Below are positions 4,096 through 49,085 of a DNA stretch of 62,784 nt, one piece after another. The stretch is from Saprospiraceae bacterium. Lineage in GTDB: Bacteria; Bacteroidota; Bacteroidia; Chitinophagales; Saprospiraceae. Location: positions 1 to 62,784 of the forward strand of contig JALHQW010000049.1 of NCBI GenBank assembly GCA_022841745.1, given 5' to 3'. The translations under genes and the position numbers were made by a program. Within the stretch, counting starts at the first letter, position 1; the number at the start of each line of letters is the position of its first letter. The notes beneath the pieces are model-generated. The model was given only the letters and a program-made list of their open reading frames with translations. It was not told the DNA's origin and ran no database searches.

Positions 4096-4953
4096 TTAAA
4101 CCAAAGCCTTTTTCAAAGCCCGCCTGCACACCACACTCGCCAAGTGCCGACGATAGTCTTCGCTGGCGAAGTTGTCGCTGAGCACCATATCGGCATTGTC
4201 GCAGGCACGGCTGGAAGCGAGGTTGATGGCATCCTCGGTTGGTGCTTGGCCTTCCAAGGCGGCTTCCGCAGCAGTTGCACGGTAGGAGAAGCTGCCAACG
4301 CCATTGAAGGCAACCCGCACATTGGTACACTTGCCGTCCACGAGGCTCATTTGCACCGCACAGGCTGCCAAGGCAAAGCGGGAAGCTGGCTGCGCAAATT
4401 TCTCGTAGGCACAGCGCAATGTTTCAGCATCTGGTTCCGGCACTTTCACTTCCGTGATGATTTCGCCTTCGCCAAGGGCCGTGTAGAAAAAGCCCTTGAA
4501 AAATTCGGTGGCTGGGATGTTGCGCTCCCCGAAAGCACCGTTGACCTCCACCGTGGCATCGGCAGCGATGAGCACAGCGGGCCAGTCAGCAGCCGGGTCG
4601 GCATGGGCGATGCTGCCACCGATGGTGCCCACGTTGCGCACCTGCACGTCGCCAATCAGTTCGGCGGCATGGGCGAGCAGCGGGATTTTACCCGTCACTG
4701 TTTTGTGCGTGGCAATGGCCCCGTGTGTGGTGGCTGCGCCAATGCCGATGAACTTGCCCTTGTCACGGATAAAGTTCAGTTCCGGCAGGCGGGCAATGTC
4801 CACCAAGGTCGTGCTGGCGTTCAGCCGCAATTTCATGGCGGGGATTAGCGAGTGGCCTCCGGCCAAAAGCTTGGCACCGGGGTCGTCTTTTATCAATTGA
4901 ATGGCCTCGGCCAAGGTGCCGGGGCGCTTATAATCGAAGGTTGAAGGAATCAT
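4096..4953 (-). CDS. coxM: Xanthine dehydrogenase-family FAD-binding subunit (CoxM-like)
   Basis: 285 residues. The FAD-binding motifs of the medium subunit are visible: LLAGGHSLIPAMKLR near residues 29-43 and TIGGSIAHADPAADWP near residue 110. It carries electrons from the two [2Fe-2S] clusters of the small subunit to FAD (family knowledge). The opening IPSTFDYKRPGTLAEAI is canonical and supports the start. Gene order S-L-M-G on the minus strand makes this part of a molybdenum hydroxylase operon. True CO oxidation is unlikely given the active-site type of the large subunit. Confidence 0.92.
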   Translation of the reverse strand: MIPSTFDYKRPGTLAEAIQLIKDDPGAKLLAGGHSLIPAMKLRLNASTTLVDIARLPELNFIRDKGKFIGIGAATTHGAIATHKTVTGKIPLLAHAAELIGDVQVRNVGTIGGSIAHADPAADWPAVLIAADATVEVNGAFGERNIPATEFFKGFFYTALGEGEIITEVKVPEPDAETLRCAYEKFAQPASRFALAACAVQMSLVDGKCTNVRVAFNGVGSFSYRATAAEAALEGQAPTEDAINLASSRACDNADMVLSDNFASEDYRRHLASVVCRRALKKALV

Positions 4954-4969
4954 TTTGATGTGTTTTTTT

Positions 4970-5106
4970 GATTTAAGATATAAGATAGACGATATAAGAT
5001 TTTAGATTTATTAGGGGCATCGCCAATTTGCAAAACACCTGTATTTGCAACTACTTCCGGCCTCCCAAATCTTAAATCTAAAATCGTCTATCTTATATCT
5101 AAAATC
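4970..5106. repeat. Inverted heptad array (AGATATA-type units)
   Basis: The left arm 4976-5010 reads as five consecutive 7-mers: AGATATA, AGATAGA, CGATATA, AGATTTT, AGATTTA. The right arm (5067-5106) is the imperfect reverse complement. The loop of about 56 nt is unrelated to the arms. It lies between coxL and coxM. The same unit family recurs at 21129-21265, 39699-39797 and 42982-43078. Confidence 0.9.
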
Positions 5107-5128
5107 AATTAATTAAAACAAAAAGGTG

Positions 5129-21095: not shown

Positions 21096-21128
21096 AGGAT
21101 TAACTGAGGACGGACAGGTGATTTTTTT

Positions 21129-21265
21129 GATTTAAGATATAAGATTTTAGACGTAAGATTTTAGATTTTATTGACGACTGCTTGATTGCTAATTTTCGAT
21201 TCTGGGCAAATTAGCAGACCTCCCAAATCTTAAATCTAATATCATATATCTGATATCTTAAATCA
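21129..21265. repeat. Inverted heptad array (AGATTTT-type units)
   Basis: The left arm reads AGATATA, AGATTTT, AGACGTA, AGATTTT, AGATTTT. The right arm 21226-21265 is its imperfect complement. It belongs to the family of 4970-5106 and has the same right-arm edge (CTCCCAAATCTTAAATCTA), but a different loop. It lies between asnS and the SET gene. Confidence 0.9.
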
Positions 21266-21301
21266 AAATACACCAGCCCCTCTCAAATAAGCACCCACCT
21301 C

Positions 21302-35286: not shown

Positions 35287-35445
35287 ACCTCACCCCCGAC
35301 CCCTCTTCCCGCTGTGCGGGACAGGCACTACGAGGAGAGGGGAGTTGAGGCAGAGGATACCCCAAAGCCTTTAAAACTAGCAGGGTCTCACCCCTCTCCT
35401 TGTAGTGCCTGTCCCGCACAGCGGGAAGAGGGGCAGGGGTGAGGT
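35287..35445. repeat. Long inverted repeat, about 55-bp arms
   Basis: The left arm 35287-35342 (CACCTCACCCCCGACCCC, CTGTGCGGGACAGGCACTAC) and right arm 35392-35445 are near-perfect complements with three or four mismatches. The 50-nt loop is unrelated. Fragments of the same CCCTGACCCC/AGGGGAG vocabulary occur in frame within the downstream lipoprotein gene and the hybrid sensor gene. Confidence 0.92.
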
Positions 35446-39689: not shown

Positions 39690-39698
39690 AGATTATTT

Positions 39699-39797
39699 GA
39701 TTTCAGCTATAAGATAGACGATTTTAGATTTTAGATTTGAAGGGCCGTGCTACCCCAATCTAAAATCTTATATCGTCTATCTGAATTCTTATATCAA
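39699..39797. repeat. Inverted heptad array with GGGCCGTGCTACCCC loop
   Basis: The left arm reads AGCTATA, AGATAGA, CGATTTT, AGATTTT, AGATTTG; the right arm is its imperfect complement. The loop GGGCCGTGCTACCCC occurs in reverse complement in the array at 42982-43078, so the two arrays flanking the DUF5107 gene are related copies in opposite orientation. Confidence 0.92.
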
Positions 39798-42981: not shown

Positions 42982-43078
42982 GATTTCAGATATAAGATAT
43001 ACGATTTTAGATTTCAGATTGGGGTAGCACGGCCATCCAAATCTGAAATCTAAAATCGTATATCTTATATCTTATATC
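42982..43078. repeat. Inverted heptad array with GGGGTAGCACGGCC loop
   Basis: The left arm reads AGATATA, AGATATA, CGATTTT, AGATTTC, AGATTGG; the right arm complements it. The loop is the reverse complement of the one at 39699-39797. It lies upstream of the fucosidase gene. Confidence 0.92.
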
Positions 43079-44740: not shown

Positions 44741-44795
44741 AAACACAGCGATAAACGCCATATTTGCTGAAGCAATTAGTGTTTCCGAAGTGCAT

Positions 44796-47700
44796 ATGGA
44801 TAACAAAAAGTCCCGTGCGTGCATATCGTTGATAGCCCTGCTGTTGTTGGCGGCGGTGTGGCTACATGCCCAGACGCCACGTGTCGAATCACTCACCATT
44901 GCCGACGGCCTGTCACAGGGCATGATTTACGACATCGAGCAGACAGACGACGGCTTCATGTGGTTCGCCACGAAGGACGGGCTGAACCGCTACGATGGCT
45001 ACGGTTTCGAGGTGTTCACCAATGACCCTTTCAACCCGTTTTCCATCGCTGGCAACGACATACACCACATGTTCGAGGACAGCCGGGGCAATCTCTGGGT
45101 TTCTATTGACGGAAAGGGACTGGATGTGTTGGAAAAAAAGTCCGGCAAGTTTTTGCACCTGCCACTCGGCGTGCCTGCTTTCGTGACCGAAACCAGCGAC
45201 GGGGTCATTTGGGTAGGCTCCGACAAGCATTTGCTTCGGCTGCGGTGGCGCAGCGCCCACCTCGATCTGCTGGACTCTCCCAAACTTGACGCTTACATTA
45301 CGGTCGAGCAGATGCCAGTAAATTTCGCCCCTTTCCCACTGCCGATGCAGGTGGAAGCAGAATCGGATGGGTCGCTGCTGATTTCCAGCCCAATAAACGG
45401 ACTTGCCAGGTACAACCCTTCCATTGGCCAGTTGACCAAATTGCATCCCGAAGCCTTTAGCATGCAGTGCCGCACAGACAAGGGCGTTTGGGCGATTAGC
45501 TCTACCTCAGAAGTTTGGTTGATTGAAAAAGGCGGCTCGCCCCGACGGATAAACCTGAACGTGGTGCGCCCCCCTTACGCAACCATTAGGGTCATGTCTG
45601 ACGGGCATGGCAATATCATTGTTTCTGGCACTTCCCTGTACAAAGGCAGCGGTTTTTTCAGATTTTCGGAAGATGAATTGGTACGGAATCGTGAAGTGAA
45701 TCAGGGTGAAAAAGTCTTTGGGTTCGACTTTTTTTCGCCTTGGTCGGAGGTGGATCGCTCTGGCAACCTGTGGGTTGGTACCAGCGGCTACGGTTTGCGA
45801 AAAACGAGCCTCGCCAACCTGCCGTTCCGACACATTTTCCCCGGCATCAGCGTCATTCAAATCATATCCTACAACAATCAGCTTTACCTGCCGATGTCAC
45901 AGGGCGAGGAGTTGTTAGTACTGGAAACGGGCGCTTTGATAAAAACCAAGACGCTGCTTCCCGAAATCACTTACCTGAAATGGGCTATGCAGGCGGACAA
46001 CGGAACGACTTACTTGCTTGGCCTTGGTAATGTGCAAAACATGCACGGGGTTTGGGAGCAACAAAGCATGCTCGGCATCGTCAAAGACGGCAAAACCCGC
46101 TTTCTGAAAGTGAAAGCCTCCGTGAGCTTTTACGGATTCCTGTTCGTGGACTCGAAAAGTCGGGCTTGGGCAAGTGGTACACAGGGGCAACTGTTGTGCT
46201 ACCTGCCAGATGTTGACCGAATCGTCACTTTCGACCTCACACCTTATTTGGGCAACATTTCACAAGCTTACGCTATGTACGAAGATGCCCACCACGACAT
46301 TTGGGTAGGCACGGACAACGGGGCGGAGAAATTGGAAATTGGGAAACTGGAAATTGAGAAATTGGAGACAAATTCGGATGGTGTGATTATTTCCAAATTT
46401 CCAATTTCCCAATTTCAAACGATCCCCTCTGACCCGCAAAGCCTGCGGCACAACTTCGTCACCGCCTTTTGCCCTGACCCACTCGAACCCGAACGCTACC
46501 TCTGGCTCAGTACAAAAGGCGGCGGTCTGAACTTGCTCGACCTGACAACCAACAAATTCGAGCATTTCACCAGCCGCAACAGTGGACTGCCAAATGATGT
46601 GGTGTATGGCATACTGCCCGACGATGCGGGGAACATTTGGGGCAGTACCAACAGGGGACTTTTTCGCCTCACTGCCAGCCAAGCCAACAGCCAACAGCCA
46701 ACAGCCAATCGCACTTATCGCTTCCGCAACTTCCGAGCGTTCGACGGTTTGCAGAGCGATGAGTTCAATACGCTCTCATTTTATAAAGGAAAAGATGGGC
46801 GACTCTATTTCGGCGGGGTGGAAGGCTTGACGGTATTTGACCCTGCAGCCATCGTTGACCGAAAATCTGATGCCCAAGTTCAGTTTACTGGCTTGAAAAT
46901 CAACAACTTGGACGTTGATTATGCTGACGCTTTCCCAACCCAAAATGTGGGCAAACACCCGCTTGACCGACCGCTCCACCGGACGGAGTCGCTCCGGCTC
47001 CAGCACGACCAAAGCACCATCACCATCGATTTTGCGCTGATGGACTTCGTGAACACGAAGGAAAACCGCTACCGCTACCGACTGCACGGCACCGACGATG
47101 ACTGGGTAACGGCGGGCGTCAACCATTCGGTTTCCTACACCAATTTGCCGCCCGGCAGCTACACCTTCGAGGTGCAGGGCAGCATCAGCGGCGGCGAGTG
47201 GAGTAAATCCACTTTCCTGAAAATCAAGGTGTTGCCACCTTGGTGGGCCACTTGGTGGGCTTATTCTTTCTACATGCTGGCGCTCGGCATAGCGGCATAT
47301 TCGTTTTATAAAAATCGCCTGCGGCAAAAAATGGAGCATCAGGAAGCCCTGCGCCTACGGGAGTTGGACGAGTTCAAGAGCCGCTTTTTCACGAACATTA
47401 CCCACGAGTTCCGAACGCCGCTGACGGTGATAATTGGAAATTTGGAAATCATGAAATTGGAAATTGGAAAAGTGGTCACACAATTTCCAATTTACTCACG
47501 TGAATCTTCGATTTCTCAATTTCTAATTTCTAAAATAGGCATGACCCGCCGCAATGCCGAGAGCCTCCTTCGCCTCATCAACCAGATTTTGGATTTGGCA
47601 AAACTGGAGTCCAACTCCTTGAAAATGAACTATGTACGAGGCGACGTACTGCCATACCTGCGCTACATCAGTGAGAGCCTGCACTCCTTCGCCAATGCGC

Positions 47701-49085
47701 AGAACGTGATGGTGCGGGTGGAAAGCAGCGAAGCCGAAATCGTCATGGACTACGACCCAGAGCGCCTGCTGCAAATCGTGCATAACCTGCTGTCGAACGC
47801 CATCAAGTTCACGCCGAGCGGGGGCAGGGTGGATTTACGAGTTACGATTGACGAATTACGATTAGAGGTGGCTGCGTCCCCAATCGTAAATCGTAAATCG
47901 TCACTCGTAATTCAAGTTGTTGACACGGGCGTCGGCATTCCCGAAGGGGATTTGCCGAAGGTCTTCGACCGCTTTTATCAAGCTAAAAACCAAGAACACT
48001 CGAAGGCGGGCGGCACGGGCATCGGGCTGAGCTTGACGAAGGAACTGGTGAGGGCAATGGGCGGTGAAATCAATGTGGATAGCGAGGTAGGGAAGGGGAC
48101 GACGTTCAAGGTGCAGTTGCCCTTGGTGCAATCACCCCTGACCCCTAAAGGGGGACCTGCGTCGGGAAGTTCATCGGTAATTCAAAAATTTGAAAATACA
48201 GCAAAAGTTGATGGATTAGGTTCCCCCTCCAGGGGAGCAGGGGGTGTGATGGGTGAGGGGAATCACATCCTCCTCATAGAAGACAACCCAGACGTGGTGG
48301 AATACCTGGCCACATGCCTAAACTCCCCTCTCCTCGCAGAGCCTGCCCCGATTATTCGGGGAGAGGTGTCGGGGGCGAGATACCAACTCGACTTCGCCTA
48401 CAATGGCCGGGCGGGCATCGAAAAGGCGCTGGAAACCGTGCCAGACCTCATCATTTCCGATGTGATGATGCCCGAAAAAGACGGCTTCGAGGTCTGCGAT
48501 TTTTTGAAAAACGACGAAAGAAGCAGCCATATCCCCATCGTTTTGCTGACGGCAAAGGCCGACGTGGAGAGCCGCATCGCTGGCCTGAAACGGGGTGCCG
48601 ACGCCTATTTGGCGAAGCCCTTCCACCGGGAAGAACTGCTGGCGACGGTGGCGAACCTGCTGGAGTTGCGGCGGAGGTTGCAAGAGCGGTTTGCGAAGTC
48701 AGCAGTCTTCAGTCCACAGTCCACAGACCACGGGAACCAATCCGCAATCCGCAATCCACAATCCGAAATCGAAGACCTTTTCCTCCAAAAGCTCAACGCC
48801 CAAATTGCGGAGCACCTGAACGACTCCAATTTCGATGGCCCGCAACTGGCCCGGGCGATGGGGCTGAGCGAGGTGCAGCTTTACCGCAAAATAAAGGCGC
48901 TGACGGACAAGTCAACTGCCATTTACATCCGCAGCGTGCGGCTGGCGAAGGGGCGTGAACTGCTGCAAAGCACCCTGATGAACGTGTCGGAAGTGGCATA
49001 CGCAGTGGGCTTCGAAGACCCGAATTATTTTTCCCGCACTTTTTCGCAGGAGTTTGGGGTGGCCCCGAGCGAGGTGCGCAAGTAG
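44796..49085 (+). CDS. Hybrid two-component sensor/regulator (HTCS) with AraC output domain
   Basis: 1429 residues from the ATG at 44796. Order: signal peptide; periplasmic two-component-propeller repeats (LTIADGLSQGMIYDIEQ, FMWFATKDGLNRYDGY); Y_Y_Y domain near residue 785 (NLPPGSYTFEVQGS); one membrane helix near 817-838; HisKA with FFTNITHEFRTPLTV (His870); HATPase with HNLLSNAIKFTP, DTGVGIP and GGTGIGLSLTKELV; receiver with Asp1222 (LIISDVMMPEKDG); C-terminal AraC HTH (VSEVAYAVGFEDPNYFSRTF). It senses a glycan fragment and regulates local genes. About seven repeat-derived stretches are translated within it, two of them inside the HisKA and HATPase domains. Confidence 0.95.
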   Translation: MDNKKSRACISLIALLLLAAVWLHAQTPRVESLTIADGLSQGMIYDIEQTDDGFMWFATKDGLNRYDGYGFEVFTNDPFNPFSIAGNDIHHMFEDSRGNLWVSIDGKGLDVLEKKSGKFLHLPLGVPAFVTETSDGVIWVGSDKHLLRLRWRSAHLDLLDSPKLDAYITVEQMPVNFAPFPLPMQVEAESDGSLLISSPINGLARYNPSIGQLTKLHPEAFSMQCRTDKGVWAISSTSEVWLIEKGGSPRRINLNVVRPPYATIRVMSDGHGNIIVSGTSLYKGSGFFRFSEDELVRNREVNQGEKVFGFDFFSPWSEVDRSGNLWVGTSGYGLRKTSLANLPFRHIFPGISVIQIISYNNQLYLPMSQGEELLVLETGALIKTKTLLPEITYLKWAMQADNGTTYLLGLGNVQNMHGVWEQQSMLGIVKDGKTRFLKVKASVSFYGFLFVDSKSRAWASGTQGQLLCYLPDVDRIVTFDLTPYLGNISQAYAMYEDAHHDIWVGTDNGAEKLEIGKLEIEKLETNSDGVIISKFPISQFQTIPSDPQSLRHNFVTAFCPDPLEPERYLWLSTKGGGLNLLDLTTNKFEHFTSRNSGLPNDVVYGILPDDAGNIWGSTNRGLFRLTASQANSQQPTANRTYRFRNFRAFDGLQSDEFNTLSFYKGKDGRLYFGGVEGLTVFDPAAIVDRKSDAQVQFTGLKINNLDVDYADAFPTQNVGKHPLDRPLHRTESLRLQHDQSTITIDFALMDFVNTKENRYRYRLHGTDDDWVTAGVNHSVSYTNLPPGSYTFEVQGSISGGEWSKSTFLKIKVLPPWWATWWAYSFYMLALGIAAYSFYKNRLRQKMEHQEALRLRELDEFKSRFFTNITHEFRTPLTVIIGNLEIMKLEIGKVVTQFPIYSRESSISQFLISKIGMTRRNAESLLRLINQILDLAKLESNSLKMNYVRGDVLPYLRYISESLHSFANAQNVMVRVESSEAEIVMDYDPERLLQIVHNLLSNAIKFTPSGGRVDLRVTIDELRLEVAASPIVNRKSSLVIQVVDTGVGIPEGDLPKVFDRFYQAKNQEHSKAGGTGIGLSLTKELVRAMGGEINVDSEVGKGTTFKVQLPLVQSPLTPKGGPASGSSSVIQKFENTAKVDGLGSPSRGAGGVMGEGNHILLIEDNPDVVEYLATCLNSPLLAEPAPIIRGEVSGARYQLDFAYNGRAGIEKALETVPDLIISDVMMPEKDGFEVCDFLKNDERSSHIPIVLLTAKADVESRIAGLKRGADAYLAKPFHREELLATVANLLELRRRLQERFAKSAVFSPQSTDHGNQSAIRNPQSEIEDLFLQKLNAQIAEHLNDSNFDGPQLARAMGLSEVQLYRKIKALTDKSTAIYIRSVRLAKGRELLQSTLMNVSEVAYAVGFEDPNYFSRTFSQEFGVAPSEVRK
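46327..46417 (+). repeat. In-frame inverted heptad array a in HTCS (AAATTGG units)
   Basis: AAATTGG, AAATTGG and GAAACTGG units on the left face CCAAATTTCCAATTTCCC on the right. It is translated as KLEIGKLEIEKLE...ISKFPISQF within a propeller blade, about residues 511-541, between WVGTDNGAE and SDPQSLRHNFV, which are normally close together. Confidence 0.88.
46684..46704 (+). repeat. In-frame heptad repeat b in HTCS (CCAACAG x3)
   Basis: Three exact tandem CCAACAG units encode the Gln/Asn-rich stretch ANSQQPTAN. No inverted partner is visible. Confidence 0.85.
47430..47537 (+). repeat. In-frame inverted array c in the HTCS kinase domain
   Basis: AATTGGA units (47432 onward) face CAATTTC and CTAATTTC units. 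It is translated as GNLEIMKLEIGKVV and FPIYSRESSISQFLIS. It lies nine residues after His870, between the first and second HisKA helices, which normally join by a short turn. Confidence 0.88.
47832..47916 (+). repeat. In-frame inverted heptad array d in the HTCS ATPase domain
   Basis: The left arm is ACGAGTT, ACGATTG, ACGAATT, ACGATTA (47837-47864). The right arm is TCGTAAA, TCGTAAA, TCGTCAC, TCGTAAT (47884-47911). It encodes RVTIDELRLEV...NRKSSLVI between the N box and DTGVGIP. Confidence 0.92.
48128..48260 (+). repeat. In-frame inverted repeat e in HTCS (kinase-receiver linker)
   Basis: CAATCACCCCTGACCCCTAA and GGTTCCCCCTCCAGGGGAG, GGGGGTGTGATGG are imperfect complements separated by about 65 nt. 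It forms the linker between HATPase and receiver domains. Confidence 0.8.
48318..48379 (+). repeat. In-frame inverted repeat f in the HTCS receiver domain
   Basis: CTCCCCTCTCCTCGCAGAGC faces GGGGAGAGGTGTCGGGGGCG around CCCCGATTATTCGGGG. It encodes NSPLLAEPAPIIRGEVSGAR between helix 1 and strand 2 of the receiver domain. Confidence 0.88.
48697..48770 (+). repeat. Two adjacent in-frame heptad arrays g in HTCS
   Basis: AGTCAGC, AGTCTTC, AGTCCAC, AGTCCAC, AGACCAC (48697-48731) are followed by TCCGCAA, TCCGCAA, TCCACAA, TCCGAAA (48741-48768). They form the linker between receiver and AraC domains. Confidence 0.92.

Follow-up and report, generated by a model that had tools for sequence, protein, structure and literature searches.

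In-frame heptad and palindromic repeats in a hybrid two-component regulator gene of a Saprospiraceae bacterium

The regulator gene and its seven repeat tracts

The window under study, a stretch of 62,784 nucleotides corresponding to contig C49 of an 8.43-Mb draft genome of a Saprospiraceae bacterium, carries a gene encoding a hybrid two-component regulator with the Pfam domains Reg_prop, Y_Y_Y, HisKA, HATPase_c, Response_reg and HTH_18. The gene is located downstream of an alpha-L-fucosidase gene, and the products of genes further upstream include a SusD-like protein and a TonB plug protein. The best named homologues of the deduced regulator belong mostly to Saprospiraceae, Phaeodactylibacter or Lewinella. 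The coding region listed in Table 1 is extended to 1,431 codons when the GTG at position 44790 is taken as start, as was done in the list of open reading frames.

The original prediction, made from the nucleotide sequence, had described seven heptad or palindromic arrays in this gene, all of which leave the reading frame open. The sequence itself, the open reading frame and a Tandem Repeats Finder search, which reported period-7 or related repeats at 46326-46366, 46389-46416, 46682-46708, 47432-47470, 47511-47533, 47832-47863, 47882-47910, 48710-48731 and 48738-48770, confirmed seven tracts at these places (designated S1 to S7 in Table 1) and the open frame. The tracts can be divided into three kinds, comprising the heptad hairpins S1, S3 and S4, the heptads without hairpin S2 and S7, and the G+C-rich palindromes S5 and S6; accordingly, the two arrays predicted at 48128 and 48318 are palindromes and not heptads. 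The further statement that the units differ each time was partly right, as S1 and S3 are both of the GGAAATT class and the elements belong to families that are found throughout the genome.

Table 1. Coordinates of the regulator gene, its repeat tracts and related dispersed elements
Feature	Position	Strand	Remarks
Hybrid two-component regulator gene	44796..49085	+	1,429 codons from ATG, open frame; Pfam E values 3.9e-30 to 2.4e-9
S1, heptad/octad hairpin, GGAAATT class	46327..46420	+	Propeller part; arms 46332-46362 and 46389-46419, 87% complementary
S2, heptad array AGCCAAC, no hairpin	46682..46708	+	3.9 copies with 100% match in Tandem Repeats Finder; about 11 extra residues
S3, heptad hairpin, GGAAATT class	47430..47540	+	Tip of HisKA two-helix hairpin, after HEFRTPLTVIIG
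S4, heptad hairpin, ATTTACG/ATTACGA class	47832..47913	+	HATPase beta-turn; 32-nt arms, 88% complementary
S5, G+C-rich palindrome CCCCTGACCCCTAAAGGGGG...	48134..48247	+	ATPase-receiver linker; inverted-repeat pair
S6, G+C-rich palindrome CTCCCCTCTCC...GGAGAGGTGTCGGGGGCGAG, 57 nt	48323..48379	+	Inside receiver domain; 17 extra residues
S7, heptad arrays AGTCCAC then CAATCCG, same sense, no hairpin	48697..48770	+	Receiver-HTH linker
Intergenic heptad hairpin, order-conserved family	42982..43078		Other copies in the window at 4953-5123, 21125-21268 and 39697-39797
Compound element copies	C1:152379, C1:158296, C3:53160, C3:18737, C3:24084		In the sampled bases of contigs C1 and C3

The number of arrays in the regulator gene clearly exceeds that expected from its coding content. 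Seven arrays of period 7 or 8 were detected at a score of at least 10. By comparison, 300 synonymous-codon shuffles yielded 0.19 arrays on average and never more than 3, and 300 shuffles of codon order yielded 0.01 on average. The predicted RNA folds of the heptad hairpins were better than those of dinucleotide shuffles, with z values of -2.8 for S1 (at 46320), -3.8 for S3 (47425) and -5.4 for S4 (47826). The folds of S5 (48120, z -1.8) and S6 (48312, z -1.4) were only weakly better, and those of S7 (48690, z +0.7) and S2 (46675, z +0.9) were not. A search against Rfam yielded, up to an E value of 0.1, a single match, of a microRNA family to the S1 hairpin; since its 27 bits compare with a gathering score of 60, this match was taken as chance. 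At the DNA level, a search of the whole genome with S1 yielded 30 matches (E values of at most 1e-3), a number in which S1, its reverse arm and, for some places, both strands are counted. The S6 palindrome has six matches elsewhere in the genome, one of them within the window; this copy, at 35289-35352, lies on the minus strand and is 82% identical to S6.

To a large extent, the tracts correspond to segments that are missing from related proteins, which is the outcome the original prediction had anticipated for a comparison with homologues. In an alignment of 30 homologue rows including one duplicate pair, the S6 insert was absent from 29 rows (28 of 29 without the duplicate), the homologue L009 having a shorter and different insert, and S2 fell into a gap in every row that covers its place. 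The residues encoded by S3 were common only to the paralogue L002 of the same genome, and another homologue, L068, has a long unrelated insert at this position. Both S3 and S4 are missing in L085, whose genome gives the best DNA match apart from the window's own. The paralogue L002 and the homologue L010 contain S5-family palindromes in the corresponding linker, among them exact 24- and 25-bp forms, and at the place of S7 both have heptad hairpins of another class. Among the aligned rows, none of the window's own inserts showed residues shared with distant genera, which would have pointed to ancient protein sequence.

Residues 848-1431 of the regulator were modelled by AlphaFold (mean pLDDT 82, pTM 0.54), which leaves S1 and S2 outside the modelled part; because of the pTM value, the packing of the domains is uncertain. 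Only four stretches have a pLDDT below 50, and these fall into S4 (179-186), S5 (270-306), S6 (337-346) and S7 (466-471; all in model numbering). The S3 insert appears as the loop 52-59 between two helices, where it forms the tip of the HisKA helix hairpin. In S4, the arms (about 168-178 and 184-195) coincide in part with the strands E166-175 and E190-198, and the loop of the DNA hairpin is represented by the turn. All five C-terminal inserts are thus modelled as parts of loops, linkers or hairpin tips, and together with the homologue alignment the model supports the view that in-frame inserts are tolerated in loops in a manner resembling that of Rickettsia palindromic elements (RPEs).

The repeat population of the genome and its turnover

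The composition of the repeat population was deduced from 1,259,784 bases (15% of this one draft genome), consisting of the window and parts of contigs 1 to 7, in which home-made gene calls yielded 644 genes covering 74% of the sampled bases; all thresholds were chosen by the analyst. The period spectrum was dominated by periods 7 and 8, with 97 and 60 arrays, respectively, as compared with 0 to 10 for each of the periods 4-6 and 9-13. Further peaks at 14-16 and 21-24 represent multiples of the period-7/8 arrays, and a local shuffle of a 0.46-Mb subset contained no arrays at periods 4-16. Of the 133 arrays in the sample with a score of at least 12, 88 are intergenic and 29 lie within genes, while 13 cross a gene edge and three are near a gene end. 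An inverted partner was found within 150 nt for 60 of the 133 arrays, in comparison with none of 133 random loci, and a direct partner for 13.

The intergenic hairpins show a characteristic position relative to the adjacent genes. Only three of the 36 heptad hairpins with a called gene on both sides lie between divergent genes, compared with 97 of 434 background gaps of at least 150 nt. Among the heptad hairpins next to a gene 3' end, 31 of 33 are located within 30 nt of the stop codon, where uniform placement would predict 22.8; this proximity was reached by none of 200 simulations, although the medians of 7.0 and 8.7 nt are close. Moreover, strong stems of any sequence were detected in 32 of 51 convergent, 92 of 257 tandem and five of 44 divergent gaps of 60-400 nt, and in none of the shuffled gaps. 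Owing to this adjacency to stop codons and the excess of stems in convergent gaps, the intergenic copies look like 3'-end hairpins, which may serve in the termination or protection of transcripts. Several hairpins occupy the whole gap between two stop codons, and their sequence is very variable. In 41 hairpins the whole arms form the inverted repeats, and mirrored variants between the arms beyond those of a shuffled unit order, considered as a sign that one arm is a copy of the other, were indicated for only five of the 41 at p<0.05 and for 24 of the 41 at p<0.5.

Evidence for copying was obtained from two kinds of dispersed elements. The intergenic family to which the hairpin at 42982 belongs has, in both arms, units of approximately GATTTCA GATATAA GATAGAC GATATTA GATTTTA GATTT, whose order is largely kept. 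A comparison of unit order with unit-shuffled copies was significant (p<0.05) for 12 of 45 arm pairs, all of which belong to this one family at seven dispersed places; the other hairpin families gave no copying signal, the remaining 33 of the 45 compared pairs being not significant. Additionally, a compound element consists of a 23-nt hairpin leader, CCCGAGGTGTCGGGACAAGTTCC, that is directly followed by AATCCGC or AGTCCGC heptads. This element occurs in frame twice, in two different frames, in the gene C1:152067-163964, one copy standing just before the sequence YTSGSTGKPKG, which we take to be an adenylation-domain motif. It is also present in frame once in the unrelated gene C3:52157-54187 and at the 3' ends of two genes. 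As a consequence of its in-frame position in both the C1 and the C3 gene, the peptide NPEVSGQVPQS is found in two unrelated proteins. A sixth leader match in the sampled bases has no heptads, and the reversed control gave no matches. With at most two mismatches, the leader is represented by 10 copies in the whole genome, by two in a congener and by none in the other 118 family genomes searched.

The gene C1:152067-163964 is 11.9 kb in length and contains six in-frame heptad arrays, two of them just before YTSGSTG sequences; the array peptides include SPIRNPQS, SSSVQRPSSA, PSSIHRPSS and SSLIPHPS. In general, unit classes recur many times through the genome. A Y1/RAYT transposase, of the kind to which REP elements are linked, was considered as mover. 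Nine Y1_Tnp matches are present in the genome, and an array was found in two of the nine loci of 3.1-3.3 kb; as this is about the expectation from a density of one array per 7-9 kb, the candidate was dropped. No insertion with a target-site duplication was noticed.

Peptides and palindromes of a similar kind are frequent among the Bacteroidota. The congener G061, of which 0.355 Mb were seen, favours other units, namely AGGGATG, ACTCCCT and ACACCCT. Its arrays are longer than those of the window genome (median 63 versus 32 nt); of the 34 period-7 segments in G061, one is a run of N. Individual G061 arrays reach 233 nt, examples being C18:56-288 and C1:18551-18733. The samples of the two genomes are joined by 13 DNA matches of more than 300 nt with 66-77% identity, and in the stretches scanned around them, by inspection rather than by a full count, no arrays were seen at corresponding places in both genomes. 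In the clearest case, a gap flanked by what are presumably the genes of an electron-transfer flavoprotein pair has a heptad hairpin in the window genome and unrelated palindromes in G061. Exact heptad patterns proved to be too strict as a cross-genome measure. Three copies of AATCCGC were detected in one of 198 phylum genomes, namely the window's own, and three copies of TCATCCC in three of 120 family genomes, with 501 matches of the reversed control in G061, where CCCTACT is itself a common unit and accounts for the high control value.

Reading frame, strand bias and the beta-turn slot of homologous genes

Since seven leaves a remainder of one on division by three, an array of at least three units shows all three frames, and a stop-free unit gives the same heptapeptide in any of them. 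The arrays inside called genes (score of at least 11) contain no in-frame stops, compared with seven and eight in the other two frames, and 33 array records of the regulator and its homologues, a few of which are simple low-complexity runs, gave a similar result with none in frame versus eight and six. A plain repetition of the unit in the 3' arm of S4 would produce TCG TAA in frame, but the sequence there is TCG TCA. To some extent an open frame follows from the search itself, which only open reading frames survive, but this does not apply to a strand bias. Single genic arrays were C-rich on the coding strand in a ratio of 20:5, as opposed to 9:22 for single arrays after stop codons (Fisher p 1.8e-4; an array between convergent genes was counted once per gene), and the bias was retained for units that are stop-free on both strands (14:4 versus 5:14, p 0.003). 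No C-rich strand bias was found for the arms of genic hairpins (4:3). The bias of the single arrays suggests a choice at the peptide level.

To compare the regulator gene with its relatives, 102 homologous coding sequences, the window gene included, were searched for inverted repeats with a score of at least 13 and a loop of at most 80 nt. This search resulted in 23 inverted repeats, whereas two synonymous shuffles per gene gave a mean of 1.0; because one homologue had been entered twice (as L023 and L088, which carry the same repeat), 22 of them are distinct. The arrays in these genes (score of at least 10) numbered 24 for period 7, nine for period 8, nine for period 6, seven for period 9 and 21 for period 12. 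Period 12 is thus nearly as common as period 7, which is therefore not unique inside genes.

More than half of the inverted repeats, 13 of the 23 (12 distinct ones without the duplicate), map to the query residues 1016-1041 that represent the S4 beta-turn, and beside the window gene the slot is occupied by inverted repeats in 12 further rows, 11 of them distinct. About seven types can be told apart in the slot among the 102 genes. Heptads are represented by an ATTTACG-like class (window gene and L026), an ACGGTGG class (L004 and L069) and an AGGGATG class (L008). The palindrome AGACTTGGCAGGTTT is found in L002 and L010 and, with one base changed, in L089. Four other hairpins, in L005, L023, L028 and L042, are singletons in this set, that of L005 being possibly kin to the AGACTTGGCAGGTTT type, and L003 has one array arm in the slot. 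For the complete beta-turn palindrome of L002, the sampled 1.26 Mb contained no further copy.

A quick tree of 99 rows, from which the insert columns had been left out, was used to follow the occupation of the slot. The presence of a palindrome required 10 changes, seven of which are forced by starred branches, and the number was also 10 without L003. When slot types were distinguished, 13 changes were counted, a number that was unaffected by merging the types of the window gene and L026 and those of L005 and L002. The presence of an insert is somewhat clustered on the tree, only four of 500 shuffles being as low (shuffled mean 12.4), and loss with refilling is therefore not separable from repeated gain; the types are not clustered. 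Aligned, more distant kinases from 20 further stretches of the genome had no hairpins or arrays at the slot, which indicates that the slot is used in the subfamily of the regulator and not in all kinases, and some arrays were present elsewhere in these kinase stretches or in other open reading frames. The palindrome arms of L002 and L010, of 15 and 24 bp at two homologous places, are identical, whereas the third codon positions of these genes are only about 42% identical. This identity fits a family that has been copied or homogenised, or a strong constraint on the DNA.

Origin of the inserts and relation to known repeat systems

Several known repeat systems share properties with the elements described here. 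RPEs occupy intergenic regions as well as in-frame positions within unrelated protein genes, apparently in a form compatible with function, and are described as elements of about 105-150 bp with defined Rickettsia sequence families and a conserved peptide (PMC10969869, PMC2229807). As with RPEs, and apparently with the protein-coding palindromes of Wolbachia, repeats occur both between genes and in frame in unrelated genes. The compound element of leader and heptads, in particular, behaves in this way as a single element and encodes one peptide, NPEVSGQVPQS, in unrelated proteins. Unlike RPEs, the present elements have arms of 7-nt units, form several unrelated families and reside in a Bacteroidota host, and one protein slot contains different hairpins in different homologues. 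The seven tracts of the regulator fall into several unrelated short sequence classes instead of the defining RPE sequence families, and for this reason they were not regarded as members of the RPEs.

The heptameric simple sequence repeats of Nostoc, Xanthomonas and Beggiatoaceae (TAACTGA), which are depicted as mostly intergenic and as variable in sequence and length between relatives (PMC4692102, PMC4679880), resemble the arrays of the window genome in their 7-nt units, in the excess of period 7 and in their mostly intergenic position. They are mainly direct and intergenic according to these accounts, in contrast to the many paired hairpins next to stop codons and the minority of in-frame copies found here. 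The BrickBuilt element of Porphyromonas gingivalis, another member of the Bacteroidota, similarly combines tandem units with a small dispersed element with inverted ends, but is presented as a MITE with a minisatellite of 23-nt units that forms one family and is always intergenic (PMC4596501). REP elements are likewise short dispersed palindromes (PMC3733652), but the present repeats comprise several sequence classes rather than one tagged sequence and are not associated with the nine Y1 matches. In mitochondrial genes of Nematomorpha, coding palindromes are kept in working protein genes (PMC6649704); their arms encode conserved regions, unlike the arms described here, which lie in variable loops.

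Taken together, the data are probably best explained by an RPE-like in-frame colonisation of tolerant loops by palindromic and heptad repeats that are kept by selection for an open frame. The tracts would be members of short palindromic or heptad families that populate the genome mainly just downstream of stop codons, and would have come to lie at seven places that tolerate extra residues, namely loops, a helix-hairpin tip, a beta-turn and linkers. Their arrival may have involved a copying or insertion process, presumably followed by slippage in 7-nt steps, with selection retaining open and loop-compatible variants. By arithmetic, the gain or loss of one or two 7-nt units could restore the frame. 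The selection itself is inferred from the missing stops and the strand bias. Most likely the inserts are tolerated rather than used, and no specific function is claimed for them.

The main alternative is an origin of the arrays in place, by replication slippage generating 7-nt microsatellites and by fold-back template switching, with no dispersed insertion. The over-representation of period 7 in bacterial simple repeats, for which two reports cite earlier work (PMC4692102, PMC4679880), is consistent with such an origin, as are the lack of a conserved unit order between the places of most hairpin families, the long arrays of other units in the congener, the four singleton slot hairpins and the uniqueness of the L002 palindrome in the sampled genome. 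Since two unrelated genes as well as 3' ends contain the leader with its heptads, the order of units is retained by one hairpin family across seven dispersed places and unit classes recur many times in the genome, we regard an exclusive origin in place as a possible but somewhat improbable explanation.

Phase variation has its textbook basis in the slippage of coding arrays with non-triplet units, and with units that shift the frame and several arrays in one gene the regulator could in principle be a contingency locus that is switched off and on by the gain or loss of units; the arrays, however, are short, of about three to five units, and interrupted, which makes a switch of this kind very unlikely. 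A removal or skipping of the inserts at the level of RNA or of the ribosome, in the manner of a bypass, would render their coding content irrelevant and would be in line with the strong RNA hairpins predicted for three inserts. As a skipped insert needs no open frame, the absence of in-frame stops from genic arrays speaks against it, as does the TCG TCA of S4, and such a bypass can hardly be expected. Equally implausible is the assumption of ancient functional protein loops that look repetitive only at the DNA level. The S3 class shared with L002 and the beta-turn palindrome shared by L002, L010 and L089 would agree with ancient loops, but the arrays and stems vanish on synonymous shuffling, the palindrome arms of L002 and L010 are far more alike than their third codon positions, and the segments are missing from most aligned homologues.

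Within the preferred reading of a colonisation of tolerant loops, the beta-turn slot leads to a further, speculative proposal. The hairpin pool of the genome might act as a standing source of loops, and this beta-turn of the ATPase domain as a docking slot that unrelated palindromes have filled independently and then filled anew, each pair of arms giving rise to the strands of a longer beta-hairpin. The machinery behind this process would recognise the shape of a hairpin and not its sequence. We put this forward tentatively and consider it unlikely to hold in its entirety.

The excess of heptamers in bacteria and the in-frame palindromes of Rickettsia are already known. In the literature searched, which consisted mostly of papers accessible without subscription, we found neither protein-coding palindromes described for Bacteroidetes nor heptad hairpins for Saprospiraceae, and the combination, most of all the occupation of one protein slot by unrelated hairpins, appears to be new for repeats of the RPE-like kind. 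In-frame palindromes are best known from Rickettsia and, apparently, from Wolbachia, and a Bacteroidota genome shows a like behaviour, here with hairpins made of heptads, with several families and with one protein loop used repeatedly. For the annotation of such genomes, the data contain a warning that peptides like SAIRNPQS or SSLIPHPSS can be translated repeats and not conserved motifs. The repeats moreover provide many natural replicates for asking at which positions foreign sequence is accepted by proteins and whether new loops originate from DNA hairpins. These findings suggest that repeat DNA may keep supplying new loops to working proteins.
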